From Maylandia zebra (Eukaryota; Chordata; Actinopteri; Cichliformes; Cichlidae): 64,000 nucleotides of DNA. Below, one piece after another: positions 32,182 to 64,000 of this stretch. The notes below the pieces were generated by a model that searched no databases, had not been told where the DNA came from, and worked only from the letters and a program-made list of their open reading frames with translations. The DNA is taken from NCBI RefSeq assembly GCF_041146795.1, contig NC_135187.1, positions 3,483,556 through 3,547,555 on the forward strand, in the 5' to 3' direction. The position numbers and the translations under genes were made by a program. Position 1 is the first letter of the stretch. Each line of letters starts with the position of its first letter.

Positions 32182-32670
32182 ATGACTTTGATCTGCGTCC
32201 TCATCTGGACTCTCCTCTGCTGCTGCTTCACAGGTAAAGTCCAGAGAATCAAACTCCTCTCCTCTATCAACATCTGTCCCTCTGAAATGAAGCCCACAAA
32301 ACCATGAAGCTGCTTTATGTTTTTGTCTCTGTGTCCTCAGAGTCCAGAGGACAGATCACAGTGACTCAGCCTGGAGCAGTGAGCTCTGCTGTGGGAGGAT
32401 CTGTGAGCATCAAGTGTACGACCAGTCAGGATGTTTATTTTTACAGCAGTTCCCACTCCCACTCTTTAGCCTGGTACCAACAGAAAGATGGAGGAGTTCC
32501 GAAACTGCTCATTTACTATGCTAGCACTCGAGCATCAGGGATTCCAGCTCGTTTTACAGGCAGTGGGTCAAACAAAGACTTCACTCTGACCATCAGTGGA
32601 GTCCAGGCTGAAGATGCAGCAGTTTATTACTGTAAAGGAGAATTTAATGTCAGCTCTTGGGAGCTCTTCA
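32182..32670 (+). CDS. Immunoglobulin light-chain variable gene VA4 (long CDR1)
   Basis: Leader exon 32182-32233, V exon 32341-32670. CDR1 is [13 protein letters not shown], five residues longer than in VA1. CDR2 is YASTRA. CDR3 begins [11 protein letters not shown], close to VA2 (LGEFNVNSQY), while the frameworks follow VA1. The 3' flank diverges after AGAAACTG and lacks the CA repeat found behind every other VA gene. Open frame, intact RSS. Confidence 0.96.
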
Positions 32671-32698
32671 CACAGTGAAAAACAGTCGTACAAAAACC
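32671..32698 (+). other. 12-spacer RSS of VA4
   Basis: CACAGTG 32671-32677, 12-nt spacer, ACAAAAACC 32690-32698. Confidence 0.97.
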
Positions 32699-33727: not shown

Positions 33728-36328
33728 AAGGCAAGGCAAGGCAAGGCAAGGCAAGTTTATTTGTATAGCACAATTCAACAACAAGGTGATTCAAAGTGCT
33801 TTACAGAGACATTAGAAACAAGAACAAATAAAAAGCATGATTTAAAATTGATTAAAACAAGCAAATAAACTAACTAACTAATTAATAAACAAACAAACAA
33901 ACAAACAAACAAACAACAGTATATAAAATCAAAACAGATAAAATCAGAACAGTAGATAAAATCAGTAGTTAAATGTAAGTTTTGAAATTTAAGCTTAAAG
34001 TGTGGATTTGGTGCTTTATTCAAATGCAGCTGAGAATAGGTGAGTCTTCAACCTGGATTTAAATAAACTGAGTGTTTCAGCTGATCTGAGGCTTTCTGGG
34101 AGTTTGTTCCAGATATAAGGAGCATAAAAGCTGAATGCAGCTTCTCCGTGTCTGGTTCTGACTCTGGGAACTGATAAAAGACCGGATCCAGATGACCTGA
34201 GGGATCTGGATGGTTCATACTGGGTCAGGAGGTCATTGATGTATTTTGGTCCTAAACCATTCAGAGCTTTATAGGCCAGCATCAGAACTTTAAAGTCTAT
34301 CCTCTGACGGACAGGCAGCCAGTGTAAGGACCTCAGAGCTGGACTGATGTGGTCCACTTTTTTGGTCTTAGTGAGGACTCGAGCAGCAGAGTTCTGAATG
34401 AGCTGTAGTTGTCTGACTGATTTTTTAGGTAGACCTGTAAAGATGCTGTTACAGTAATCAAGCCTACTAAAGATGAATGCATGGACTAGTTTTTCCAGGT
34501 CCTGTTGAGACATCAGATCTTTTATCCTTGAAATATTCTTGAGGTGATAGTAAGCTGACTTTGTTATTGTCTTAATGTGTTTTTCTAAGTTTAGGTCTGC
34601 ATCCATCACTACACCCAAATTTCTCGCCTGGTTTGTGGTTTTTAGATGTATAGATTGAAGTTCTCTGGTGACCTGTAATCGTTTTTCTTTGGCGCCAAAG
34701 ACTATTACCTCAGTTTTGTTTTTGTTTAGCTGGAGAAAATTGTGGCACAACCAGTCATTGATTTCCTCAATGCATTTACCAAGAGCCTGTACAGGGCCTC
34801 GGTCTCCTGGTGACATTGTGATATATATTTGTGTGTCATCTGCATAGCTGTGATAGTTTATTTTGTTGTTGTTTATAATCTGTGCCAGTGGGAGCATGTA
34901 GATGTTAAACAGAAGGGGTCCCAAGATGGAACCTTGGGGAACTCCACATGTGATACTTGTCTGCTCAGATGTGAAGTTACCTATTGATACAAAGTATTTC
35001 CTGTTTTCTAAGTATGTTTTGAACCAGTTTAGTACAGTTCCTGAAAGACCTGCCCAGTTCTCCAGTCGTTTGAGTAATATGTTGTGGTCAACTGTATCAA
35101 ATGCTGCACTGAGATCCAGTAAAACTAGGACTGACATTTTTCCACTGTCTGTATTCAGACATATGTCATTAAACACTTTGGTCAGAGCGGTTTCAGTGCT
35201 GTGGTTCTGTCTAAAACCTGACTGGAAGGCATCGTAGCAATTATTCTGTTTTAAGAAGTAACTGAGCTGTTGAGAAACTGCTTTTTCAATGATCTTACTT
35301 AAAAACGGGAGATTTGAGATCGGCCTGTAGTTGTTCATTTGTGTCTTGTCAAGATTGTCCTTTTTCAGTATAGGTTTGATTACAGCAGTTTTTAGTGGTT
35401 CTGGAAACACACCTGATAATAAAGAAAAATTGACGATCTGTAACAGGTCTGACTCTAAAGTCTTTGAGACCTTTTTGAAAAAACTTGTTGGCAGGACATC
35501 TAAACAGCAGGAGGAGGAGTTCAGTTGACCTAAGATGTCCTCCAGGTCTTTGCTGTTAATAGGTTGAAACTGTTTCATGGTGTTTAAACAGTTTTTTGGT
35601 GGACATCCTGGATCTGCTGTTGATGTACCAATTGCTTGTCTAATTTTTTGGATTTTTTCTGTGAAGAATTTGGCAAAGTCATTGCAGGCCATGGTTGAAT
35701 GAAGTTCAGCTGCCACTGACACAGGAGGGTTTGTTAGCCTGTCAACTGTAGAAAATAAGACCCGAGCATTATGGCTGTTTTTAGTGATGATGTCAGAGAA
35801 GTAGGACCTCCTTGCATTCCTCAGTTGTAAATTATAATTGTGAAGTTTCTCTTTATAAATGTCATAATGAACCTGGAGGTTTGTTTTTCTCCATCTGCGC
35901 TCAGCTTTCCTACACTCTCTTTTTTCATTTTTCACCAGTGTGGAGTTTCTCCATGGAGACTTTTTCCTTCCAGAGATAACCTTCACCTTAATGGGAGCAA
36001 TAGTGTCCATTACATTTAACATGTTAGCATTGAAGCTATTGACGAGCTCATTGACTGACCCTCTGGGCAGGTCAGGTGTTAATGGGAAGACCTGGTTAAA
36101 AATTGCACTACTGTGTTCAGTTATACACCGTTTTGTGATCACTGTTGTTGATATATTTATGTGGGCTGAGATTTTACTTTCAAAGAAAACACAGTAATGA
36201 TCAGACACGCCCACATCAGACACAGTAACCTTTGAAATGCTCAGGCCTTTGGAGATCAGTAGGTCAAGAGTGTGTCCTCTATTATGTGTGGCCTCTGTTA
36301 CATGCTGAGTCAGCCCAAAGTTGCCCAG
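33728..36328 (-). mobile_element. L2-type LINE, 3' part
   Basis: 3' end on -: CACTTTGAATCACC, ATACAAATAAACTTGCC and a TTGCC-repeat tail (33728-33754). The 5' part of the same copy is 44718-45645. The two were separated by the LTR element, whose CCCAG target duplication is at 36324-36328 and 44718-44722. Confidence 0.93.
34016..36328 (-). CDS. L2 LINE endonuclease C-terminus and reverse transcriptase
   Basis: The open frame runs from the LTR insertion point to the stop at 34016, at least 735 residues. The endonuclease end has GVSDHYCVFF, so the catalytic Asp-His is present. RT blocks are MNNYRPISNLPF, LLDLSAAFDTVDH, CGVPQGSILGP and YADDTQIYI. The C-terminal L2 signature follows: SRLDYCNSIFTGL, IQNSAARVLTK, LHWLPVRQRIDFK and FKSRLKTHLF. 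There is no frameshift in this part. It joins in frame with the 44723-45433 piece across the LTR insertion, so the LINE was whole here before the insertion. Confidence 0.92.
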   Translation of the reverse strand: MGNFGLTQHVTEATHNRGHTLDLLISKGLSISKVTVSDVGVSDHYCVFFESKISAHINISTTVITKRCITEHSSAIFNQVFPLTPDLPRGSVNELVNSFNANMLNVMDTIAPIKVKVISGRKKSPWRNSTLVKNEKRECRKAERRWRKTNLQVHYDIYKEKLHNYNLQLRNARRSYFSDIITKNSHNARVLFSTVDRLTNPPVSVAAELHSTMACNDFAKFFTEKIQKIRQAIGTSTADPGCPPKNCLNTMKQFQPINSKDLEDILGQLNSSSCCLDVLPTSFFKKVSKTLESDLLQIVNFSLLSGVFPEPLKTAVIKPILKKDNLDKTQMNNYRPISNLPFLSKIIEKAVSQQLSYFLKQNNCYDAFQSGFRQNHSTETALTKVFNDICLNTDSGKMSVLVLLDLSAAFDTVDHNILLKRLENWAGLSGTVLNWFKTYLENRKYFVSIGNFTSEQTSITCGVPQGSILGPLLFNIYMLPLAQIINNNKINYHSYADDTQIYITMSPGDRGPVQALGKCIEEINDWLCHNFLQLNKNKTEVIVFGAKEKRLQVTRELQSIHLKTTNQARNLGVVMDADLNLEKHIKTITKSAYYHLKNISRIKDLMSQQDLEKLVHAFIFSRLDYCNSIFTGLPKKSVRQLQLIQNSAARVLTKTKKVDHISPALRSLHWLPVRQRIDFKVLMLAYKALNGLGPKYINDLLTQYEPSRSLRSSGSGLLSVPRVRTRHGEAAFSFYAPYIWNKLPESLRSAETLSLFKSRLKTHLFSAAFE

Positions 36329-36578
36329 TGTTAGGTTTGTAGCTTGAACCTATTCGCTGGAACGTTAAGACAATATAATTACACTGCTAAGCAAGACACA
36401 AATAGGCAAAGTTCTTCATGTTACTCGTGCACGGGAGAGACTGGACAGAGCGCCGTCCCTTCGCTTGACCCCAGTAGCTCTCGTCCGTTCTCCCATACAC
36501 TGTCCTTTTATTGAGGTTACATGAATATGCATAGGTTCATTAACATACGACGTCTACATACAAACAAAGAGTACCTTG

Positions 36579-36631
<53 letters not shown>

Positions 36632-36967
36632 ACTGCTGATCAAAGGGTCAAACATCCTTGGTCAGGAAGAGGGTAGCCTCCCCCTCACCCTAGATGGTTC
36701 ATCCTAGATAACACGGTGAGGAAGTCCTGCAGTTCATCTAAACAAAGAGCACTTAGACTAGAACAGACGTAGCTACGTTAATCCTACCATAAAACAATAA
36801 GACACGGTATGACCTCTCATGCTCCCAAAGTGCTGTCTAATACACACAAAGTTTGCAGACTATCAAGGATCAAAACCTCTACCAATCTACAACTAATTAC
36901 AAAACTCTAAGCATATATAAGTAAATATTTCTAAGCATAAATGACAATCAACAATACAAATCTAACA
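36329..36967 (-). mobile_element. 3' LTR of the first LTR element
   Basis: 639 bp, with TG...CA ends (TGTTAG/CTAACA). On - it contains CCTCAATAAAAGG as a poly(A) signal, followed by an R/U5-like stretch. It appears identical to the 5' LTR apart from 25 versus 32 TG units at 36581-36630, which accounts exactly for the 14-bp length difference. Confidence 0.95.
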
Positions 36968-36982
36968 TTTCCCCCCTTTTTG
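36968..36982 (-). other. Polypurine tract
   Basis: On - it reads CAAAAAGGGGGGAAA directly before the 3' LTR, the usual primer for plus-strand synthesis in LTR elements. Confidence 0.85.
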
Positions 36983-37724
36983 ACCTTTATGCTTGAAAAG
37001 TTCCCAGGTATGAATACCTCATGTCTGACAGTTTCAATGCAAACCTTTTTATACTCAGCATATGTCAAATCACCCTAAATTACTGAAAGGTACACAGTTT
37101 AATAAATGTATTAGCAGTTACCCCATTCATTGAGCTCATCTCATGGCAAACTGCATCTTACGAGCAACCAAAGAAATTGTTAATTTAATAGTGAAACTAA
37201 AAAAGTAACATTTTCAAAAACATCTCAACTTGGTGGTGCTTCCTCCGGGTGTGCACATCACATGTCTCTCTGCAGAGTGGTTTAAGCTCTGCAGGGCGTC
37301 ATGAATGTCTCTTCCAGTTGTTTCCATCACTGTCCATAGGACCAGAGTCCAAATGTATGTAGAATAGACATTCAAACATACTAGTTGGTTTTGTGGTTCG
37401 TCAACATGGGTCTCAGCTATTTCCAAGCTGCAGACCTCTCAGCACTCTAGTTTTATGGCCTCTTACCAGCCCCCATCACCTGACTTCAGACCTTCGTCTT
37501 GTGAGGGGGATATTTATGACTCCTTAATTGTCCACGCTCTGCAGAAAAAGCTCTCTGTGGAAAGGGTGCTGGGTTCCGTCATCTTACTGCTGTTATGATC
37601 CCAGCAGCCTTCAGAGTGTCATCGTATGCACAGTATAGTGGCACAGCATTAGGTGATGTTCATAGGAAACTGCTGTCATCACCACCATAGCTTCTGGTTC
37701 CTGTGCTTTCACAGAATCAAGATG

Positions 37725-38093
37725 TCATCCTCGAACTCCTTCTGCGCTGTCGATGGAGCTTGGCACGCTCCCCTCATCCCACGAGTTTTCATGTTCCAAC
37801 GCTGCTGAAGGTTTAAGGCAGAGCACGTCGTACACCTTAGTCGTCTTCCTCAGCGTCAATATTGAATCTTTCATTTTATTTAAAATCTCCTGGAAACTCA
37901 GTAGCACAGCTCTCTGTGTGATGTCTGCTGTGCTGAAGATGATCTCTGATCCTCCTGAAGCCTCTCTCCTGGCCTCAGCTCCCATCTTGTGGACGATCCT
38001 CTCCTCTATTTTGCAGGCAGTTTCATGGTCCTTGCTGTGGCTCCAAGGTCTGATCTCATGATGGGCCCCAACCAGCTTGACCTTTGACCTCAA
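37725..38093 (-). other. Uncharacterised open frame in the LTR element
   Basis: A 122-codon open frame between the H1 ORF and the 3' LTR. It starts with TTG rather than ATG, so translation is doubtful. The sequence is polar, with a possible amphipathic stretch (LSFQEILNKMKDSILTLRK). I recognise no domain. It may be a remnant of a third captured or viral gene, or chance. Confidence 0.25.
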
Positions 38094-38407
38094 CCACTGC
38101 CTGGCTGTCAGCTATGCCTGGAATGGTTCACGCTTCTCACTGGGCCTCTGAAGATTTCTCAGGAGATTACTGCTGCACCTGTATTCCCTTGCTAAGAAGA
38201 AAAACTTCTATTTGGAGAGCATGTCAACAATCATCAAACCACATTCTTTAGTTCAGTGAACTTCACTTATAGGCCATCAAAGCCTCATCTGAACATGGAT
38301 GCACCACTTGCATAGGTTTAATATTTGTAAATAAAACGGCTAATCACACAAATCACTGCAACAATAATAGTAAACATTGTTTAATGTTACTCCTTGCACT
38401 CCACCTC

Positions 38408-38435
38408 TTGACGCATGGACATTCCCATGCGTCAA
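38408..38435. other. Perfect 11-bp hairpin
   Basis: TTGACGCATGG, 6-base loop ACATTC, CCATGCGTCAA. It lies inside the LTR element. Function unknown. Confidence 0.6.
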
Positions 38436-38449
38436 CTCACCAAACCTGG

Positions 38450-40990
38450 ATCCCTGTCTTAAAGAAAAAGATTAGCTAGATCATGTCCCAGGCAACATCA
38501 GGGCATCTCCTCTGGAGTAGCTCCGTAACCCTGCAATAAAAGATGTTAGCGTGTGTTGCATATTAAGTTTGCTTAACACCTGGCTCTCCCAGGAGCCTGC
38601 ATACACACCATCACGGCCTGGAAAGCAAAATCTGGAAGTGAAATCAAACTTCATACCTGTAAACAATTGTATCATAAGAGTAATAAGCATTCAACATCAG
38701 CAAGACAAGTGTCATGTGCAGGTTTTCTCAAATCAGTAACTACAACTATTACCCTAATTCACCTCAGACATGGATTATCCCATGTACTCTGTTAACATTA
38801 ATGTAATCAGTGACTTCTCTTAAGCAAAGTCACTCCACTCATATATTATTATTATGGGTTCAAAAGTGGCCAGCAAATGAGCCCATAATAAACTATTCCA
38901 TAAATACCGTAATCTCTTATTTGTATTACCCATGTCACTTGTCCGCTTCAGCTGAATCTACTACAGCATTCTCAAAGAAACAAACATTAGCAATACACAT
39001 TGACTGTGGTCAGACGGAGGTCAGACACAGGTCAACGGATTCTAGAGGTGCCATAAAACACCATAAAGTTAACACTCGCTGTGGAAACAGTAACACTGGT
39101 CTCATCACAGTATGTCTCAAACTATATTAATTTCTCCATCAACATATGCCTGTAACTACAGTTTTCTTCACACATAAACCCAGAAATCTTGTAGTAGAGA
39201 AACATTAGCCAGTATTCCTATAAATCACATGATCAAACACATGAAGAACCGTAATGCTGTAAAAACGAAAATGCAAATGTTAGCGCTTGCGCAGGCGTAT
39301 GCATACTTTGTCACAGTTATCTCTGTGAGCACACAAGCTAGTGAATGACACACACATAGTAAATTCACAGACACAGAAAATGGCATTTAAAATGTTAAAT
39401 CATCACGCAACCTCGAGTGTTGCTGTCATCTTTCTGCTTCTGTAAAGGGAAGCACACACAGACTCATCTGCACCCCTGCCAGGCGGGGGTCAACTTCACA
39501 CAGTCGTGTTACATCAGTAAAGTCTTGTCAGCTTTTGTCAGCTTTTACCAGTCAGTCAGTTTGTTTTCCTTTCACTCACTCATTCATGCATTCATTCTTT
39601 CTTTCTTTGCTGATAGTGGAACCTATCGTCGCATTTAGTTTCCACTCTCAGCAAAATGACGTCATTTCAAAAAGAAAAAGAAGAACTTTAGTTTGGATTA
39701 CATCGCTGAATCCTTTTGGACTGGGACTGTCATTTAATAATTGTCCCAAATAAGTGGCTTTCTCCAGAGTCCATTTAAATGTGGAGAACTCACTTGGCAC
39801 AATTTTCTCGACGACGTGTAGCGCTTTTAATTCCCGACGTGCAGATCTGCTTAAAGAACAGAGATTATCAAACAAAACTTTCAGTGCACTGTGAAAGTAT
39901 CAAAATAAAAAGGCCTTGTTAAGTCATGACACAAGCTCCTCATCTCAGGAGGGTAAATCATACCATTAGCATGGTTTATCATACCATCATACTAATCGGC
40001 AGGCTCAACTTCACAACAAAAGAAAAATCATCAGCTAGATTCACTCCAAATCAACCATCAGCTGCACAACACACAACATAACCCTAATGTCATATTAGCT
40101 ATGAGTTTAATCACCCGGTCTGTGCTCTTCACTCATTTAAGCCACAGATCTATTTTATTCAATTTTTCCTTTTTCCCTTCATCATAAAACATGTGACATG
40201 CTGTCATGCACTTCACAAAACAGTCTGTTCTGACGTATTCAGAGTTGTGTATCTAAATACAGGATTCACTCGCACATCAAAGCAGGAAACTCAGTGTTTT
40301 AGAGTCTCTACTCAACACACAACAACTCCAACACATCTCATTCACTCATACTAGAATTCAGTCACCTTTCATTAATCTAAAACCGATCAACTAATTTGCA
40401 TATCAGCTATTAACCCACTAAGTTGACAGGACGACAGAAAAGCATGTTCAAAATAGTATCACAAAAGACAATTTCCCTCATACAGTAAATTACTTATGCT
40501 GCCTCAATCAAGCAGGAAGCTTCTCCCAATTTACCATTTTAACACTAAATTTATTGTCTGATCACTGATTTATCAAACCAGGATTTTTTTTTTTTTTTTT
40601 TTTTCCCACAAAAGTTAAATTGTTGTCCTGCAACTTGGAGAGTCAATTTTTTTTCTTTAGGATAAATTCAGTATTTGATAACAAGTGTCTGCTAAATTGA
40701 CACTATTGTAACACTGATGAAAGATAACAAGCTAATTTTCATTACATGTGTTTGTGTTATTAGGCAGGTCTAATGCATGTCTGTGGAGCTGCATCTCCAG
40801 CAGAGCATGTTCTTAAAGCTGCCTTTCCTACACATTTCTCTGCTATTATTTAATCATTTCTTAACTAATGTGCTATGAGTCTTCATGAGTCATTTTGTGT
40901 TTGGAATTGCATGTTCTGCTTGTGTGTGTGTGATTTTGTATATGTTTCTATTTTCGCAATGTTTCAGACTCCGTCTCAATTTTCCAACTT
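38450..40990. other. LTR element interior without recognisable genes
   Basis: AT-rich, many short frames, no domain. A T-run lies at 40584-40604. Confidence 0.5.
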
Positions 40991-40999
40991 AAGCAGTCA

Positions 41000-42190
41000 G
41001 TTTTCTTTTCCCCAGGTTTGCTAACCCAAATTTTGATTTCCCACATTAAATAATTCCTATGTGTTCTCACCTAGTCTTCTCACTCTGTTGTCCTCTCACT
41101 CTTTTGTCCTCTCCCTCTTCAACAGTCCCGGCAGTTCTCCTTCAGCTTTGTCCTGTCTAGTAGCTGAAGTGCTGCTGCTGCCTTCTTGGGCGACTTCTTA
41201 GCAGCTGCTGCCGGTTTCTTGGCTTTGGCCGCGGCGGGCTTCTTGGCTTTGCTCTCAGTAGCCTTGTTCATCTTGAAGGATCCGGAGGTCCTGGTGCCCT
41301 TGGTCTGCACCAGAGTGCCCTTCGCCACCAGGCTCTTGATGGCGGTCTTGACACGGGCCTTGTTCTTGTCCACATCGTAGCCTCCGGCAGCCAGAGCCTT
41401 CTTGAGAGCGGCCACAGACAGGCCGTTGCGCTCCTTGGAAGCGGCCACGGCTTTCACAATCAGCTCGCCCACGCTGAGGCCGACCTTCTTGGGCTTGGAA
41501 GTCATCGTCTTCTTCTTCTTGGCCTGAACCTCGGCGCAGGGCGTGTTTATGATGGAGCCTTTCCCACCACAGCGCTGGCACGTTGAACGCATCATGAAGG
41601 GTCCATTTCTTTCATGTCGCTAGCCGCATGTGGCTTGCCCGAGTCACTCAGTCCTTTTTGAGCATTTCAACATGCTGCCGCCGCAGACCCTGGCCTCAGA
41701 TCCAGCAAGTTTAGCGCGCTGATCTCCAAAAAAGTCCCGAAGGCCAGAAAGACGTCAAATAAGTGTCTCGTGCTGAGAACTCAAACAAAAACTCCTCTTC
41801 ACGCTGCCATCTTGCTCGCCCCTCCGTGAAATTCAACCAATCAGACAGGAAGATGGGTTTGCTTTCTTCTTCTGCTGCTGTTTATCCACATTGCTGCTGC
41901 TTTGCTGGGACTTTTTGTGCTCAGGACTTGCTGCTGTCTCTTTATCATGTTATTGCTTTGGAGCTGCATTCCTTATCTTCAGGGAGGAGTGAGCTCGCTT
42001 GTGAGGTTGAGAAACACATGGCACTGTAAATAAGTCAGCCAGAAACTTGGCCTGCATGTTTCCAATGATGTTAAACTATAACTTTCTTCCGACCGTTGCA
42101 TGTGGAAAATTGATTCAGGTCTGCTTTTCACCTGAAAGTGACAAACTAAGACATTTCATTATTATCATCACTGCTTAATCAACACACATC
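41000..42190 (-). repeat. H1-bearing block shared with the second LTR element
   Basis: From ATGATAATAATGA (upstream) through the H1 ORF to GAGTCTGAAACA (downstream), this block matches 62935-63985 in the opposite orientation. Outside it the two elements differ. Confidence 0.9.
41119..41595 (-). CDS. Chimeric DNAJA3-like / histone H1-like ORF in the LTR element
   Basis: 158 codons with a true ATG (two in a row). Residues 3-18 ([18 protein letters not shown]) match the CxxCxGxG zinc-finger part of mitochondrial DnaJ protein DNAJA3 (Tid1). They continue to QAKKKKT with the next Cys pair lost. From about residue 32 ([16 protein letters not shown]) it is linker-histone H1: [36 protein letters not shown] and [14 protein letters not shown] of the winged-helix domain, then a short Lys/Ala/Pro tail with KKSPKK. 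It ends with a non-H1 tail, [11 protein letters not shown]. The tail is shorter than in normal H1 and no histone 3' stem-loop follows. GC-rich against an AT-rich background. Sense to the element. Probably captured host RNA; whether it is translated is unknown. Confidence 0.85.
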
Positions 42191-43560
42191 TCTCTCTCTC
42201 TCTCTCTCTGTCTGTGTTTGTGTGAACAATCCTTTCTTAAAAGCAGAAAATGACATTGTAGTTGTTTTTCGGCTGATCAACACAAAACCTTTTTCCTATG
42301 ATTATTTCTCTTCGTCTACAATGTAGTAATTTGTCTCTTTTTCACTCTTTTTTTTTTTTTTCTTCACAATAGCTGGTGGTCTGCAAAATCACCGCTCTCA
42401 CTCACAATCAGAGGCAATCACTTTTGCACAGCGCACAAAAACACTGTGATGTCAGACACATTCACACTCACTTTTTCATCTGCATAAATAAACCATATGG
42501 CTAGAGATATGTGCCATGGTGATCCATAAGCATGATCACCAGTTTATTTAATTATTTTTAATCCAACAAAACAAATAAACAAAAACATGATGCTGATGCT
42601 ACACACACACACACGAGTCAAGGTGCAGAAAAACTGCTCATGGAAACGCTGCACACTCTCTGTTTCCCTCTCTTTGAGTAGTTCTCAGACAGCTCTTGAT
42701 CTGATAATGTGTAGCTTGCTCATCAGCTCAAAAAACAAAAACAAAACTGCAACGCGACATCACACAGTAGTTGCATGCTCTGCCCACAGTGGCAAAGTCT
42801 TACACTTACATATTCAACACAGCTTCTCCATCATGTATTTTTAGATGTTTCATACAGGGTTCAGCATATTAGTTGTTTTCACAGATGTGCTCTATATCTC
42901 AACAATGGCTCATAACAAGACGACAGTCTTCCACACAGGTCAAGTGCCTCTATGCACTTCATTAGTTTAAATATTTATCTATATCACTTCACCTCACATG
43001 TCATTGTACTGAATTTAAGCAACCACAAGCTTAATGTAGATTACTTTTAACAACTATCCACCTCAATTAAATCTATGGTCTGGCACACAGGCTGCTGTCG
43101 ATCAGGGCAAGCTAAAGAATAAACATTGTGTCAGCAAGGGGTGGGGGGAAAGCCATTCACCAGAGCATATCTTAAGTGCTGCTGATGTGGGCTGGCCTTC
43201 TCCACAGCTCTCCAAGGCTGGTGTGTTTTCTGAAAACTTCTAACATGTGAATCTCTTCCATTTATAAGCCTGCGATTAACCGCACGGCTCAGGTCCGCGT
43301 GACCGCGCTCGCGTGAACCCGCGCAGCTGTGGAGCCGTCGCTCTCTCTCTTTTTTACATAAATACTTTGTGCTGCCAGGAGCAAAGTCCAGCACAAACGT
43401 CTGTCTCCCTCCGACTCACTCTTGGTTGCTTAGAAACCCATGATAACAACAACAGTCGGTGTCACAGACCACATGTTCTGCTCCGCACACACAACAACAA
43501 CAACAACGACGACGACAATGACAACAACACAAAATAGGCCTACTGTCCAGCACAATCTGG
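42190..43560. other. LTR element 5' interior
   Basis: No gene. It contains a short TC run at 42190-42210, a T-run at 42348-42361 and a CAA/CGA repeat at 43492-43530. Confidence 0.5.
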
Positions 43561-43581
43561 ACCCCGCGGAACTTCTCAACA

Positions 43582-43860
43582 CCCCACTGAGCGGTGGAGA
43601 ACTCACTACAGTACCCCACACAGCGGTCTGTATTTCGCCCCACTAAGACGGCGAACCAAAAAAAGTTCGAACTGCGCAACTCTGCGACTTAATGCTTCTG
43701 TACAAAAAACCCCACTGAGCGGCCTTGTACATCGCCCCACTTAGACGGCGAATTTTAGCCCCACTAAGCGGCCACGGACAACGCCCCACTGAGCGGCGAA
43801 GACGTAATTTTAGCCCCACTAAGCGGCCACGGACAACGCCCCACTGAGCGGCGAAGACGT
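43582..43860 (-). repeat. Leader tandem repeat of the first LTR element
   Basis: About nine spaced copies of CCGCTYAGTGGGG (on -). The last four are organised as two perfect 55-bp units (43751-43805 and 43806-43860). They lie 200-480 bp downstream of the primer site, where packaging signals normally are. Confidence 0.9.
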
Positions 43861-44041
43861 ACAGTTATAGAGTTGGACTCTAAACTTACTCGGTGTTGCT
43901 TAGCGTGTAATATCAGCCTCGAATCCCGCCAATCGCCATTCATCGAGGAGAAAAGACATACAGCGAATCCACAGGAACTTCCTGGCTGACGTCAGTCTTT
44001 CAGCGTGTCCCTCCTCCCCTCGGTGAATGCGATTCCAGGGC

Positions 44042-44059
44042 TCCGGCATCGAAGGACCA
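44042..44059 (-). other. Primer-binding site, tRNA-Tyr-like
   Basis: On -, TGGTCCTTCGA then TGCCGGA. It is complementary to the 3' end of vertebrate tRNA-Tyr (CCGGC TCGAAGGA CCA) with one extra base. Five bases separate it from the 5' LTR. Confidence 0.75.
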
Positions 44060-44064
44060 ATTAA

Positions 44065-44314
44065 TGTTAGGTTTGTAGCTTGAACCTATTCGCTGGAACG
44101 TTAAGACAATATAATTACACTGCTAAGCAAGACACAAATAGGCAAAGTTCTTCATGTTACTCGTGCACGGGAGAGACTGGACAGAGCGCCGTCCCTTCGC
44201 TTGACCCCAGTAGCTCTCGTCCGTTCTCCCATACACTGTCCTTTTATTGAGGTTACATGAATATGCATAGGTTCATTAACATACGACGTCTACATACAAA
44301 CAAAGAGTACCTTG

Positions 44315-44381
<67 letters not shown>

Positions 44382-44717
44382 ACTGCTGATCAAAGGGTCA
44401 AACATCCTTGGTCAGGAAGAGGGTAGCCTCCCCCTCACCCTAGATGGTTCATCCTAGATAACACGGTGAGGAAGTCCTGCAGTTCATCTAAACAAAGAGC
44501 ACTTAGACTAGAACAGACGTAGCTACGTTAATCCTACCATAAAACAATAAGACACGGTATGACCTCTCATGCTCCCAAAGTGCTGTCTAATACACACAAA
44601 GTTTGCAGACTATCAAGGATCAAAACCTCTACCAATCTACAACTAATTACAAAACTCTAAGCATATATAAGTAAATATTTCTAAGCATAAATGACAATCA
44701 ACAATACAAATCTAACA
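44065..44717 (-). mobile_element. 5' LTR of the first LTR element
   Basis: 653 bp with 32 TG units at 44317-44380. It ends at the CCCAG duplication 44718-44722. It matches the 3' LTR without any other difference I could see. Confidence 0.95.
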
Positions 44718-45645
44718 CCCAGAGTGTTACTCAGGTCTTTAGTCCCTTTGTCCTGAGGGTTGTCCACATGAATGTTAAAATCCCCAGCAATAATTACACA
44801 GTCAAAATCAACACAGATCACAGACAGCAGTTCACTGAGGTCATTAAAAAAGTCTGTGCAGTATTTGGGAGGCCTGTAAACATTAAGAAACATAACTTTG
44901 GATGGGGCCTTCAGCTGTAAAGCCACATATTCAAAAGACTGAAAACTTCCAGGAGATAGCTGCTTACATTGAAATGATTCATTAAATAAGACAGCAACCC
45001 CTCCTCCTCTCCTGCTCGCCCTGACCTCACTGATAAAACTGTAGTTAGGAGGGGTCGTCTCGATGAGAACAGCTCCACTGTTACTTTGGTCCAACCAAGT
45101 TTCAGTTAAAAACATAAAATCAAGGCTGTGCTCAGTGATTAAATCATTAATTAAAAATGTTTTCCCAGCTAAAGATCTAACGTTTAATAAAGCCAACTTA
45201 AGTGTTTTAGAGGTATTACTTGTCCCCTCGTGTTTGGGAGCAGTCTGTGGCACACAAGGTATGTTTACTTTGTTTAAAGATCTTTTAGAGTGCAGCTCTC
45301 TGTGTTTTGACCAGGCCACATGTCTCCTGTCACCTAAAAGTACAGAAATTTTAAAACCTTCTAGTAAACAGGGTCCCAGCTTCTCCTGGGAAAAGTCATC
45401 ACTGCCATAATCCTCACAGCCCGGACCCTTCACACATCACGCATCAGACTGCGGAGACAGGGCATGAAGAGGAACTAAGGGGGGCGAGGCTGGGCAATGT
45501 GACTTCGATTGCTCTGTTGAGGGTGGGGCTCGATGGCGAACCTTTGGCCGCTCTGGTGGGGGGTTTATGGGGGACAAAAAGGGATTGGGACGGGGGGTAG
45601 ATCTGAGCCCAGCATTGACCCGCTCCATCATCTCCTCAGTGAATA
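44718..45645 (-). pseudogene. L2-type LINE, 5' part with endonuclease
   Basis: The - strand frame 44723-45433 holds LKLALLNVRSLAGK, MFLTETWLD, SRRGGGVAVLF, NVYRPPKY and IIAGDFNIHVD, the AP-endonuclease motifs. It reaches KDLSNTLG at the LTR insertion. Upstream in the same frame is a TGA at 45437, then a Pro-rich stretch back to an ATG at 45631. Apart from that stop, the LINE ORF would be continuous over both parts. The 5' boundary near 45645 is approximate. Confidence 0.88.
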
Positions 45646-55238: not shown

Positions 55239-55721
55239 ATGACTTTGATCTGCGTCCTCATCTGGACTCTCCTCTGCTGCTGCTTCACAGGTAAAGTCCA
55301 GAGAATCAAACTCCTCTCCTCTATCAACATCTGTCCCTCTGAAATGAAGCCCACAAAACCATGAAGCTGCTTTATGTTTTTGTCTCTGTGTCCTCAGAGT
55401 CCAGAGGACAGATCACAGTGACTCAGCCTGGAGCAGTGAGCTCTGCTGTGGGAGCAACTGTGAGCATCAAGTGTCGGACCAGTCAGAATGTTCATGTTTG
55501 GAACAACTACCATCTTTTATCCTGGTACCAACAGAAAGATGGAGGAGTTCCCAAACTGCTCATTTACTTTGCTAGCACTCGATATTCAGGGATTCCAGCT
55601 CGTTTTACAGGCAGTGGATCAAACTCTGACTTCACTCTGACCATCAGTGGAGTCCAGGCTGAAGATGCAGCAGTTTATTACTGTCAGAGTGCTCACTGGC
55701 TGAACAGTCAAGCTGTGTTCA
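55239..55721 (+). CDS. Immunoglobulin light-chain variable gene VA6
   Basis: Leader exon 55239-55290, V exon 55398-55721. CDR1 [11 protein letters not shown], three residues longer than VA1. CDR2 FASTRY, CDR3 [12 protein letters not shown]. Open frame, intact RSS. Confidence 0.96.
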
Positions 55722-55749
55722 CACAGTGAAAAACAGTCGTACAAAAACC
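55722..55749 (+). other. 12-spacer RSS of VA6
   Basis: CACAGTG 55722-55728, 12-nt spacer, ACAAAAACC 55741-55749. Confidence 0.97.
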
Positions 55750-60467: not shown

Positions 60468-61076
60468 ATGGAATTGATCAACTGGTCTCTGAATGCTATT
60501 GACACCCTCTTCTCAATGAGAAGTCTGGGCTCGGGAGAGCCCGAGTGCCCTGGAGGGACTTTCCCTGCCGGATACACAATGGATGGGTGGCAGACCTGGA
60601 GGATCTTGTGCCTGGCGGGACTGTTGATCGAGGACGCTGAAGATATCTACCTATTCGGAACCATGATAACAGGGTTCTTGCTGATCGGAGCTGGCTTGGC
60701 CCTGGCTTATTGGAGAATTAAGAGAGCGGAACCGGCTGTTCAAACCCCCCCAAGGCTGCCCGCTGGAATTGAAGCGATGGGTCGAGGCGCGACCTCTCAC
60801 AACGAACGCAGCATGGTTAACACCTTGGAGACGCTTACAGCTGCCGTGAAGACTCAAAATAACACCATTGAGCGTATGATGGGATACATCAAAGAGAGGC
60901 CTGCTCAAAATGAGACCCTTGAGCGAAAGTTGGATCACATCGCAGAACGGCTCACTGCAGTTGTGGGGTCTCAGAATCAACAGAATGACAACACCACGGA
61001 ACGGAAGTTTGATACCATCATGGGGAGGCTCGCGGTTCTCCAACGGGAGATTGAGAGACCAGTGTCGGAGTGTTAA
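60468..61076 (+). CDS. Unrecognised membrane-anchored coiled-coil protein
   Basis: 202 codons from ATG to TAA. Residues 1-60 are mixed, with a Cys/Gly/Pro motif CPGGTFPAGYTMDGW. Residues about 65-88 form one hydrophobic helix (TMITGFLLIGAGLALAYW) followed by the positive stretch RIKRAE. Residues about 110-190 are polar with repeated units: NNTIERMMGYIKERP, NETLERKLDHIAERL and NTTERKFDTIMGRL. These give Asn-Thr-(x)-Glu-Arg heptad-like repeats suggesting a coiled coil. The base composition is richer in GC than the flanks. The frame is intact and long for chance. It lies about 0.6 kb upstream of an LTR-like segment, so it may be an accessory gene of a retroelement. I do not recognise the family. 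Confidence 0.55.
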   Translation: MELINWSLNAIDTLFSMRSLGSGEPECPGGTFPAGYTMDGWQTWRILCLAGLLIEDAEDIYLFGTMITGFLLIGAGLALAYWRIKRAEPAVQTPPRLPAGIEAMGRGATSHNERSMVNTLETLTAAVKTQNNTIERMMGYIKERPAQNETLERKLDHIAERLTAVVGSQNQQNDNTTERKFDTIMGRLAVLQREIERPVSEC

Positions 61077-61639: not shown

Positions 61640-61990
61640 GTTGTGTACTTGTTGTGATATTTTGACCCCATGGGCGACTTCCCTTGGCCTGCTGGTCTGG
61701 AAAATCCAACAGTTCATCTATATGTAAAGAAGGCACTTAAACTGGAACAGGCATAGCTGCGTTGATCCTGCCGTGGAACAATGGGACAGGGTGCAGGCTC
61801 TCATGCTCCCAGGACGTGGGGGTGCATTCCTGGAGTGCACACCAAGCTTGCAGCCTGCTAAAGATCACACACAATTGATTATATGCCTCTAGGTATACAT
61901 GGTTAAATATTTCCTAATGCAAATAACTACATGCAGTATTCTACCATGTGCAAACTTATATCACTAAAGGATTCTAACTGTCTAGTGTTT
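61640..61990 (+). repeat. Segment related to the LTR at 36329/44065
   Basis: CAGTTCATCTA, GCACTTAAACTGGAACAG and CTCTCATGCTCCCA align with 36731-36840 of the first element in the same + orientation, with many substitutions. Because that LTR belongs to a - strand element, the match is antisense to the second element. Confidence 0.75.
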
Positions 61991-62326: not shown

Positions 62327-62344
62327 ATTTGGTGTCAGAAGTGG
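62327..62344 (+). other. Primer-binding site, tRNA-Leu-like
   Basis: TGGTGTCAGAAGTGGGAT is complementary to the 3' end of vertebrate tRNA-Leu (ATCCCACTTCTGACACCA). A candidate splice donor GGTAAATA follows about 15 bases on. Confidence 0.85.
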
Positions 62345-62615
62345 GATCCGCTGACAAAGGTAAATACGTGTCTTTTTTATTTTATAAGACTGTATTATAC
62401 CTTTCTCAGTGACCCACGTAGAAACGGGATATGCTGACGAAGCTTTCCTCAGTGGCCCAGATAAATGGGATACACTGACGAATCTTCCTTAGTCCCCGAA
62501 TAAAGTAAATTAAAAGCAGAGAGAAACAGGATATGCTGACGAGCTTTCCTTAGTGGCCCAAATTATAAACGGGATACACTGACGAATCTTCCTTAGTCCC
62601 CGTATAAAGCCTGTT
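62341..62615 (+). repeat. Leader repeats built on the primer-site sequence
   Basis: The word GGGATNNNCTGACNAA, which starts inside the primer site, recurs about five times (near 62341, 62427, 62469, 62530, 62570). The last four form two roughly 90-bp units that include CTTTCCTYAGTGGCCCA and CTTCCTTAGTCCCCG. Confidence 0.85.
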
Positions 62616-62633
62616 ATTTTGTAAATTAAAATA

Positions 62634-62785
62634 GAAAGACACAGGAAGTTGCCTGTTGTTTTGAAACGCATGCTAAGAAAGCGAGAAGTTGCTCGTTAAG
62701 TGAGAAGTTGCTCACCAAAAAAGACACAGGAAGTTGCCTGTTGTTTTGAAACGCATGCTAAAAAAAGTGAGAAGTTGCTCACTCA
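62634..62785 (+). repeat. Second leader repeat
   Basis: Two copies of AGACACAGGAAGTTGCCTGT, then TGTTTTGAAACGCATGCTAA, each followed by GAGAAGTTGCTC words. Confidence 0.9.
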
Positions 62786-62934
62786 GAGAGCTAGCAAATA
62801 ATTAAATTAACCTCAGATGTGCCATCCTTCAAGTGTGTAAACTCTACGTAGATGAAAAAGTGAGTGTGAATGTGTCTGACGTGCGGGAGCGGTGATTCTG
62901 CAGGTCACCAGCTATTAAAAAAAAAAAAAGGGTT

Positions 62935-64000
62935 GTGTGTTGGTTAAACAGTGATGATAATAATGAAAATGTCTTAGTTTGTCACTTTCAGGTGAAAAGC
63001 AGACCTGAATCAATTTTCCACATACAGCGGTCGGACGAAAAGTTATAGTTTAACAATTGGAAACGTTCAAGCCAAGTTTCTGGATGACTTATTTACAGCA
63101 CGATCTGTCTCAAAACTCTCACTCTTACCTGAAAAAACCTGATCAGCAGCGGCAGTATCGGAGCAGAGGCTGCAGAAGCAGTGAAAAAAAAAAAAAGCAG
63201 CAGAAGAAGAAAGCAAACCCATCTTCCTATCTGATTGGATGAATTCCACGGAGGGGCGAGCAAGATGGCGAAGTGAAGAGGAGTTTTTGTTCGAGCTAAT
63301 AGCACGAGACACTTATTTGACGTCTTTCTGGCTTTCTGGACTTTTTTGGAGATCAGCGCGCTAAACTTGCTGGATCTGAGGCCAGGCTCTGCGGCGACAG
63401 CATGTTGAAATGCTCAGAAAGGACTGAGCGACTCGGGCAAGCCACATGCGGCTAGCATGCTGGCTAGCGACCATAGCTACATGAAAGATGGTGAAAGCCG
63501 TGGCCGCTTCCAAGGAGCGCAACGGCGTGTCCGCGGCCGCTCTCAAGCAGGCTCTGGCTGCCGGAGGCTACGATGTGGACAAGAACAAGGCCCGTGTCAA
63601 GACCGCCATCAAGAGCCTGGTGGCGAAGGGCACCGGGGCCTCCGGATCCTTCAAGATGAACAAGGCTACTGAGACCAAAGCCAAGACGCCCGCTGCGGCC
63701 AAAGTCAAGAAACCGGCAGCAGCTGCTAAGAAGTCGCCCAAGAAGGCAGCAGCAGCACTTCAGCCACTAGCACAAAGTCAACCGCATCAGAGGAGGGACA
63801 GGACAAAGCTGAAGGAGAAACTGCCTGCTATTGGACTATTGAAGTGGGAGAGGACAATAGAGTGAGAGTGGTGAGAACACAAATTTTGTTATTTAATGTG
63901 GGGGATTAAAATTTGGGGTAAAAAAACCTGGGAAAAGAAAACTGACTGTTTAAGTGGGAAAATCGAGAAGGAGTCTGAAACAAAAAAAAAAAAGGAAACA
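62935..64000 (+). mobile_element. Interior of the second LTR element, cut by the window end
   Basis: Collinear with 42190-41000 (reversed) of the first element, including the AATTTTCCACAT segment, the GAGCAAGATGGCG region, the H1-like ORF and the GAGTCTGAAACA downstream flank. Confidence 0.9.
63488..63865 (+). CDS. H1-like ORF of the second LTR element
   Basis: 125 codons. It starts [19 protein letters not shown] and covers the last two thirds of the H1 winged helix ([22 protein letters not shown]), then [13 protein letters not shown] and a Lys/Ala/Pro tail with KKSPKK. It ends with a non-H1 tail, [16 protein letters not shown]. Compared with 41119-41595 it lacks the DNAJA3-like part and H1 helix 1, through a deletion from CATGAAAGA to TGGTGAAAGCC that creates its ATG. 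It also lacks seven residues between two KGT repeats. Nucleotide identity in the rest is high. The globular domain is incomplete, so DNA binding is doubtful. Confidence 0.8.

Follow-up and report, generated by a model that had tools for sequence, protein, structure and literature searches.

How does one reading frame come to join a zinc-finger piece of DNAJA3 to the globular domain of a linker histone, and why does it stand inside an LTR retroelement? This question is raised by an ORF of 158 codons in a window of 64,000 nt from the cichlid Maylandia zebra (contig NC_135187.1); with the window we mean the whole stretch of DNA that was analysed. What we find is a real, recent and multi-copy capture of host sequence with unusually legible joins, of a kind known from plants and new in its details.

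Anatomy of the element

The ORF is housed by an element of about 8.4 kb, the features of which are listed in Table 1. Its assignment to the LTR retrotransposons is based on LTR pairs of the form TG..CA flanked by a short target-site duplication (TSD), a primer-binding site, a polypurine tract and the presence of multiple copies at different sites. The two LTRs in the window are free of substitutions and differ solely in the length of the (TG)n run. The primer-binding site resembles the 3' end of a tRNA, putatively tRNA-Tyr. An earlier note, made from the sequence of the window, had placed the ORF in sense orientation inside a well-bounded LTR element. This is the case, with the correction that the strand is the minus strand.

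Table 1. Positions of the element, its captured pieces and a second copy within the window
Feature	Position	Strand	Remarks
5' LTR	44065..44717	-	653 nt, TGTTAG..CTAACA, with (TG)n run
3' LTR	36329..36967	-	639 nt
Target-site duplication, 5' copy	44718..44722	-	CTGGG in element sense, 5 bp; partner at 36324-36328
Primer-binding site	44042..44059	-	TGGTCCTTCGA.., after the 5' LTR
Polypurine tract	36968..36983	-	directly adjoins the 3' LTR
First cassette part, ~220 nt	41605..41826	-	wholly or partly in H1 copies, none seen in cassette-less copies; left border approximate
DNAJA3b zinc-finger exon piece	41520..41604	-	7-nt unit: twice in host, once here
H1 piece: globular domain and short basic tail	41174..41524	-	joined at GGCCA
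DNAJA3b last-exon piece after H1	41135..41182	-	joined at GGCAGCAGC; shortened; borders approximate
DNAJA3b-H1 ORF, 158 codons	41119..41595	-	from the ORF list; sense orientation within the element
Internal ATG, residue 31	41503..41505	-	opens H1 even in copies with an out-of-frame DNAJA3b start
Second, older, broken copy	62853..64000	+	leader, H1-like ORF, DNAJA3b last-exon piece; start approximate
Second copy, H1-like ORF	63488-63865	+	without the DNAJA3b zinc-finger piece
Second copy, DNAJA3b last-exon piece	~63741-63820	+	from sequence comparison

Sense frames of 55 codons or more number 15 within the element; the H1 frame and two that overlap with it account for three of them. Ten of the remaining 12 internal frames were scanned. 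None of these ten gave a Pfam match above the cut-off, nor was gag, protease, reverse transcriptase (RT) or integrase recognised in them. Since no coding sequence besides the H1 frame was recognised, we call the element non-autonomous and LARD-like. A scan of positions 36300-44800 against Rfam yielded no match at the gathering score and thus no histone 3' stem-loop. When viral contigs were searched by pattern, seven matches were obtained, none of which encodes a relative of the element.

With regard to the surroundings, the insertion apparently interrupts one LINE, as judged by eye, of which the ORFs 44681-45115 and 34016-36022 would be the parts. Between 4112 and 55872 the window holds repeated immunoglobulin light-chain V-like segments (for instance the ORFs 32304-32678 and 55361-55729) among many retroelements; by eye, this region is an immunoglobulin light-chain locus.

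The encoded protein

For residues 1-30 of the ORF, the top match in the PDB is human DNAJA3 (2ctt, E 5e-8, best stretch residues 1-23), and residues 1-21 are identical to cichlid DNAJA3b at 20 of 21 positions. Residues 41-110 correspond to the Pfam family Linker_histone (E 4e-19) and represent an H15 globular domain. Both assignments made in the earlier note, an N-terminal part from the DNAJA3 finger and a remainder consisting of the H1 globular domain with a shortened basic tail, are thereby confirmed. The DNAJA3b part comprises a single complete CxxCxGxG motif and the beginning of another, which does not amount to a full zinc site as in DnaJ. Its DnaJ zinc-finger match stays under the Pfam cut-off, and the hallmarks of DnaJ type A, a J domain and a complete CxxCxGxG cluster, are absent from the ORF. 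The long lysine-rich C-terminal tail of linker histone H1 is missing as well: the similarity to H1 stops early in the tail, which is cut short and then runs into other sequence. In an AlphaFold2 model built with 25 sequences (mean pLDDT 61.7), block values are 70-88 for residues 41-110 and about 40-53 for the tail and for the DNAJA3b-derived residues. The globular domain is modelled with helices at residues 42-52, 61-70 and 79-92 and two strands.

Copies in the genome and their age

The chimeric protein was used to search the whole 962-Mb genome from which the window is taken. Of 78 matches, 40 (the window copy included) cover H1 at a protein identity of at least 88% and without a stop. We read 35 of these 40, namely the window copy and 34 fetched ones, 20 at full length and 14 as pieces of 1.4 kb. 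In each of the 20 other full-length loci the ORF is flanked by LTR matches oriented in the same sense. Hence, the view that the chimera exists in many copies between LTRs was borne out in the window's own assembly. The U3 regions of three copies (L015, L018 and L023) are only 74-78% similar to that of the window, which makes the family a mosaic. TSDs were detected by script in 15 of 21 copies, and in 18 after correction of a one-base offset in the same three copies; as for the rest, L011 has none, the 3' end of L013 runs into N, and in L025 the TSD was not located. LTR pairs differ by 0-1 mismatches in 14 of 21 copies and by at most three in 17, the other four having 5, 5, 7 and 11 (the comparison is partial in L013, L024 and L025). 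These low numbers indicate that the family was recently active. Older copies with stops or frameshifts are also present.

As these first copies came from a protein search, a search with the leader DNA was added, and 40 of its 312 candidates were scored. In 39 of the 40 the leader match stands directly before a stop-free H1 match, the exception being C8:5509360. This result would fit weak selection, too.

A second copy, older and broken, is located at the end of the window and extends past it (L054); there its 3' internal part and its U3 are related to those of the first copy, at 82% and at 89% over 179 nt, respectively. That this copy might place the cassette in another LTR family was considered and rejected, because only its 5' end differs. 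Upstream of it, at 60468-61076 on the plus strand, an ORF of 202 codons with a TM-like stretch and coiled-coil-like repeats was noticed by eye, for which no Pfam match above the cut-off was obtained. The stretch 61702-61913 is 65% similar to the U3 of the element, in the orientation opposite to the H1 of the second copy. On the 5' side of the second copy, at 62328-62800, a primer-site-like TGGTGTCAGAAGTGGGATCC (by eye) is followed by short repeats; this stretch may belong to a further LTR element that is fused to the second copy.

Host genes and joins

The host DNAJA3b gene could be resolved exon by exon in the window's own genome (C6:13224355-13228829). Over 72 nt, the element and the zinc-finger exon of this gene share 94% identity. 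The H1 piece, which begins within the N-terminal tail and finishes within the C-terminal tail, can be aligned with three host H1 genes; with gaps included, the agreement is 84-87% in up to 390 columns. After H1 follows the last coding exon of DNAJA3b, with 80 nt at 91% in the second copy of the window and 46 nt at 93% in L018; in comparison with these two, the piece in the window's first copy is shorter and altered. With the zinc-finger exon before H1 and the last exon after it, H1 divides a copy of DNAJA3b that lacks the intervening exons. The joins are located at microhomologies common to both partners: the five bases GGCCA at the transition from DNAJA3b to H1 and nine bases, GGCAGCAGC, from H1 to DNAJA3b. 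Intron sequence of DNAJA3b is absent from the element. From the microhomology joins and the lack of introns we infer that the captured material was RNA rather than DNA; as neither DNAJA3b piece extends beyond one exon, capture of DNA is possible, too. For the first cassette part of about 220 nt, from which several H1 copies have lost a portion, the 5' region of DNAJA3b was considered as a source and rejected, because it gave no notable match.

The earlier note had proposed that two host RNAs were joined and built into the element. The two host genes are indeed DNAJA3 and H1, but they are not simply linked end to end, since H1 is nested in the DNAJA3b copy, and that they entered as RNA is what the joins suggest. 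Furthermore, joining the two directly does not preserve the reading frame, and 10 of 35 copies are still in this state.

The frame depends on a unit of seven bases, CGCCCTG, which is present twice in the host DNAJA3b exon. Where both units are kept, DNAJA3b and H1 are in different frames, whereas in the other 25 of the 35 one unit is left and the two parts are in frame. These 25 comprise 23 identified by script plus L013 and L014, in which the first ATG is altered and the second is preserved, with no indel in the interval. A longer DNAJA3b stretch is retained in the M. zebra protein P0015, which would be in frame through some other change. The old decayed copies L033 and L034 also have a single unit; therefore, the contraction is old or recurrent and not one single late step. 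Independently of the unit, the ATG at residue 31 opens the H1 frame in all 35 copies, and none of the three fetched host H1 genes has an ATG at this position. A loss of 11 globular-domain residues is seen in five of the 35 copies.

Cassette-less forms and the search for a partner

Seven loci (L049, L050 and L058-L062) have kept the leader and the 3' internal part and do not contain the cassette. One of them, L059, has a stretch of 22 bases, 20 of which match the last exon of DNAJA3b. This stretch may be the site where the polymerase left the element RNA. Alternatively, the cassette-less copies might be deletion derivatives and the 20 of 22 bases a remnant. In a search with the 3' internal DNA (40 scored of 309 candidates), comparison of positions placed no H1 match within reach of 15 of the 40, with two more ambiguous. 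A search with a junction pattern gave 186 matches (89 + 97), compared with 2 + 1 for the reversed control. Eight junction loci without an H1 match were sampled: five are cassette-less (L058-L062), one is a deletion form (L056), one is L055 and one gave no match (L057). L055 encodes CCHC, protease and RT and has the same primer site as the element. It was considered as the autonomous partner and rejected, as its LTR has no similarity to that of the element. Consequently, the 186 matches include other families. An autonomous partner sharing the LTR of the element was not found among the loci studied.

Two side observations concern these loci. The element covered by L055 and L064 (C1:24572300-24576100) has a CCHC knuckle, an aspartic protease, RT and, further on, an open frame of 666 codons. 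In L049 and L051 the sequence upstream of the LTR start is similar at the protein level; the two may lie in repeats of one type or result from a segmental duplication.

Distribution in protein databases

When the junction region (P0003 residues 1-42) was compared with 5.8 billion proteins, 18 candidates yielded 14 clusters of proteins, whose names refer to three East African cichlids: Maylandia zebra, Astatotilapia calliptera and Simochromis diagramma. With one protein from A. calliptera the window protein shares 99% identity, which makes a haplochromine-type cichlid its probable source. In several gene models H1 is combined with peptides from other parts of the element, arranged as in the element itself, for instance P0026 (43688-43650, H1, then 37966-37901). 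Such models are predictions and no evidence for splicing. Within the set P0001-P0034, a number of cichlid entries that bear the name histone H1 or histone H1-like were predicted from the mobile element.

Origin and role of the cassette

The observations are, in our judgement, probably best explained by serial capture of the cassette during reverse transcription, followed by amplification of the new element, with a cargo that most likely is a passive passenger. The polymerase would have left the element RNA for a DNAJA3b transcript at the 20/22-base stretch, jumped at GGCAGCAGC to an H1 transcript and at GGCCA back to the DNAJA3b transcript, and would then have moved onto the further sequence that is now the first ~220 nt of the cassette. 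The resulting element retained its LTRs, primer site and polypurine tract and would have been amplified to at least 40 copies, presumably by gag and pol of a relative acting in trans. Its H1 frame may be translated either as a fusion, where one 7-base unit is left, or from the internal ATG. If the cargo is a passenger, its intact state is explained by the youth of the copies, in which it has not yet decayed.

Does the element nevertheless profit from its cargo? The LTR transcript could yield a short-tailed linker histone that either competes for chromatin with host H1, so that the silencing of the element through H1 is weakened, or coats the element RNA as a basic protein with affinity for nucleic acids. 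We consider this rather unlikely, although several observations point in its direction. All 40 matches with an identity of at least 88% are free of stops in H1, a stop-free H1 stands beside 39 of 40 scored leader matches, no frame-breaking indel occurs in the H1 core of the aligned copies, the internal ATG is present in all 35 copies and at this place in none of the three host H1 genes fetched, and the model predicts the helices and strands of a globular domain. The selection tests give a different picture. The pN/pS ratio is 0.59 within the family and 0.25, 0.38 and 0.74 from the three host H1 genes to the family. A count by hand found 15 synonymous and 22 non-synonymous changes, and the p value for the synonymous excess depends on the mutation model, from 0.04 without to up to 0.27 with transition and CpG bias. 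A first count of indels had 0 frame-breaking indels per 23 substitutions in the H1 core versus 94 per 481 in ten non-coding pieces. In a conservative count, with alignment jitter merged, simple repeats masked and the in-frame 33-nt deletion not counted, the ratio became 0 per 34 versus 41 per 482 (Fisher p 0.16), upon which the notion of clear purifying selection on the ORF was dropped. The substitution level of the ORF resembles that of the neighbouring non-coding pieces, and the idea that it is the best-conserved part of the element does not hold against the pieces beside it. The loss of 11 globular-domain residues in five of 35 copies and the common occurrence of cassette-less copies also speak against a use. 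As the tests are weak or not significant, we do not claim selection. The suggestion in the earlier note that the cargo could help packaging or chromatin targeting has nothing but the open frame in its favour: synonymous excess and lack of frame-breaking indels fall short of significance under conservative assumptions.

Linker histone H1 has a role in the silencing of retroelements. On a more specific version of such a use, a short-tailed H1 made from the LTR in the germ line would displace host H1 and loosen H1-dependent silencing, or would coat the element RNA, so that copies with the cassette outspread those without. This version we regard as improbable.

Another possibility is that the chimera came first, as a retrocopy made by a LINE through serial template jumps, and was later inserted or recombined into the LTR element. 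The first cassette part starts with GGAGGGGCGAGCAAGATGG, which we take to resemble a LINE-1 5' end, and chimeras from LINE template jumping have been published (PMC2104539, PMC13174262). Yet neither a poly(A) nor a TSD was seen by eye around the cassette in an alignment of six sequences, and no stand-alone copy was seen, 39 of 40 H1 matches having leader DNA of the element adjacent. Moreover, a search with DNAJA3b matched only the two DNAJA3 genes and the places of the H1 copies. We therefore hold such a beginning to be improbable. Ordinary host H1 genes near repeats, or an annotation artefact, might be suspected from public gene models naming the proteins histone H1-like, and can be dismissed in view of the 20 loci with related LTRs on both sides and differing TSDs and of the three host H1 genes, which have long tails and no DNAJA3b part.

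Relation to known systems

LARDs, large retrotransposon derivatives, are a class of non-autonomous LTR elements. Like them, the cichlid element is large, has LTRs, a primer site and a polypurine tract and is without recognised gag or pol; unlike them, it bears an ORF of host origin. Acute transforming retroviruses carry host coding sequence in sense between their LTRs, at the expense of viral genes. This arrangement is shared by the cichlid element, whose cargo, in contrast, is a fragment of a linker histone and which is known here from genomic copies and not as an infectious element.

The closest precedent is the LTR retroelement Bs1 of maize. According to a review, Bs1 has taken up segments of three host genes and its chimeric gene is transcribed and translated (PMC13317346; also PMC7264820). 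In both elements fragments of more than one host gene, two in the cichlid case, lie inside an LTR element and gave a hybrid ORF after further mutation (PMC13317346, PMC7264820). The cichlid element differs from Bs1 in that it resides in a vertebrate with at least 40 matches in one genome, in that H1 has a piece of one and the same other host gene on each side, and in that the host sources and cassette-less copies share the genome with it. Whereas transcription and translation of the Bs1 chimera are reported (PMC13317346), the cichlid ORF is known from sequence and predicted gene models. The joining of several transcripts by template switching is also a feature of the LINE-made chimeric retrogenes with double template jumps in Magnaporthe; unlike these, the cichlid product is part of an LTR element and was multiplied with it (PMC2104539). 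In the literature searched, for the most part listings of freely accessible papers, no report of an LTR element carrying H1 or DNAJA3 was recognised.

Thus, a vertebrate LTR element with pieces of two host genes is at hand, for which the cassette-bearing form, the cassette-less form and both donors occur in one and the same genome. The joins mark the sites of the switches, and the copies vary between the capture out of frame and the in-frame form that has lost one 7-base unit; the record of gene uptake by LTR elements is here unusually clear. For cichlids it follows that histone H1-like entries predicted from a mobile element affect the counts of this gene family. If the H1 cargo were useful to the element, a captured architectural protein of chromatin would have been turned against the silencing by its host.
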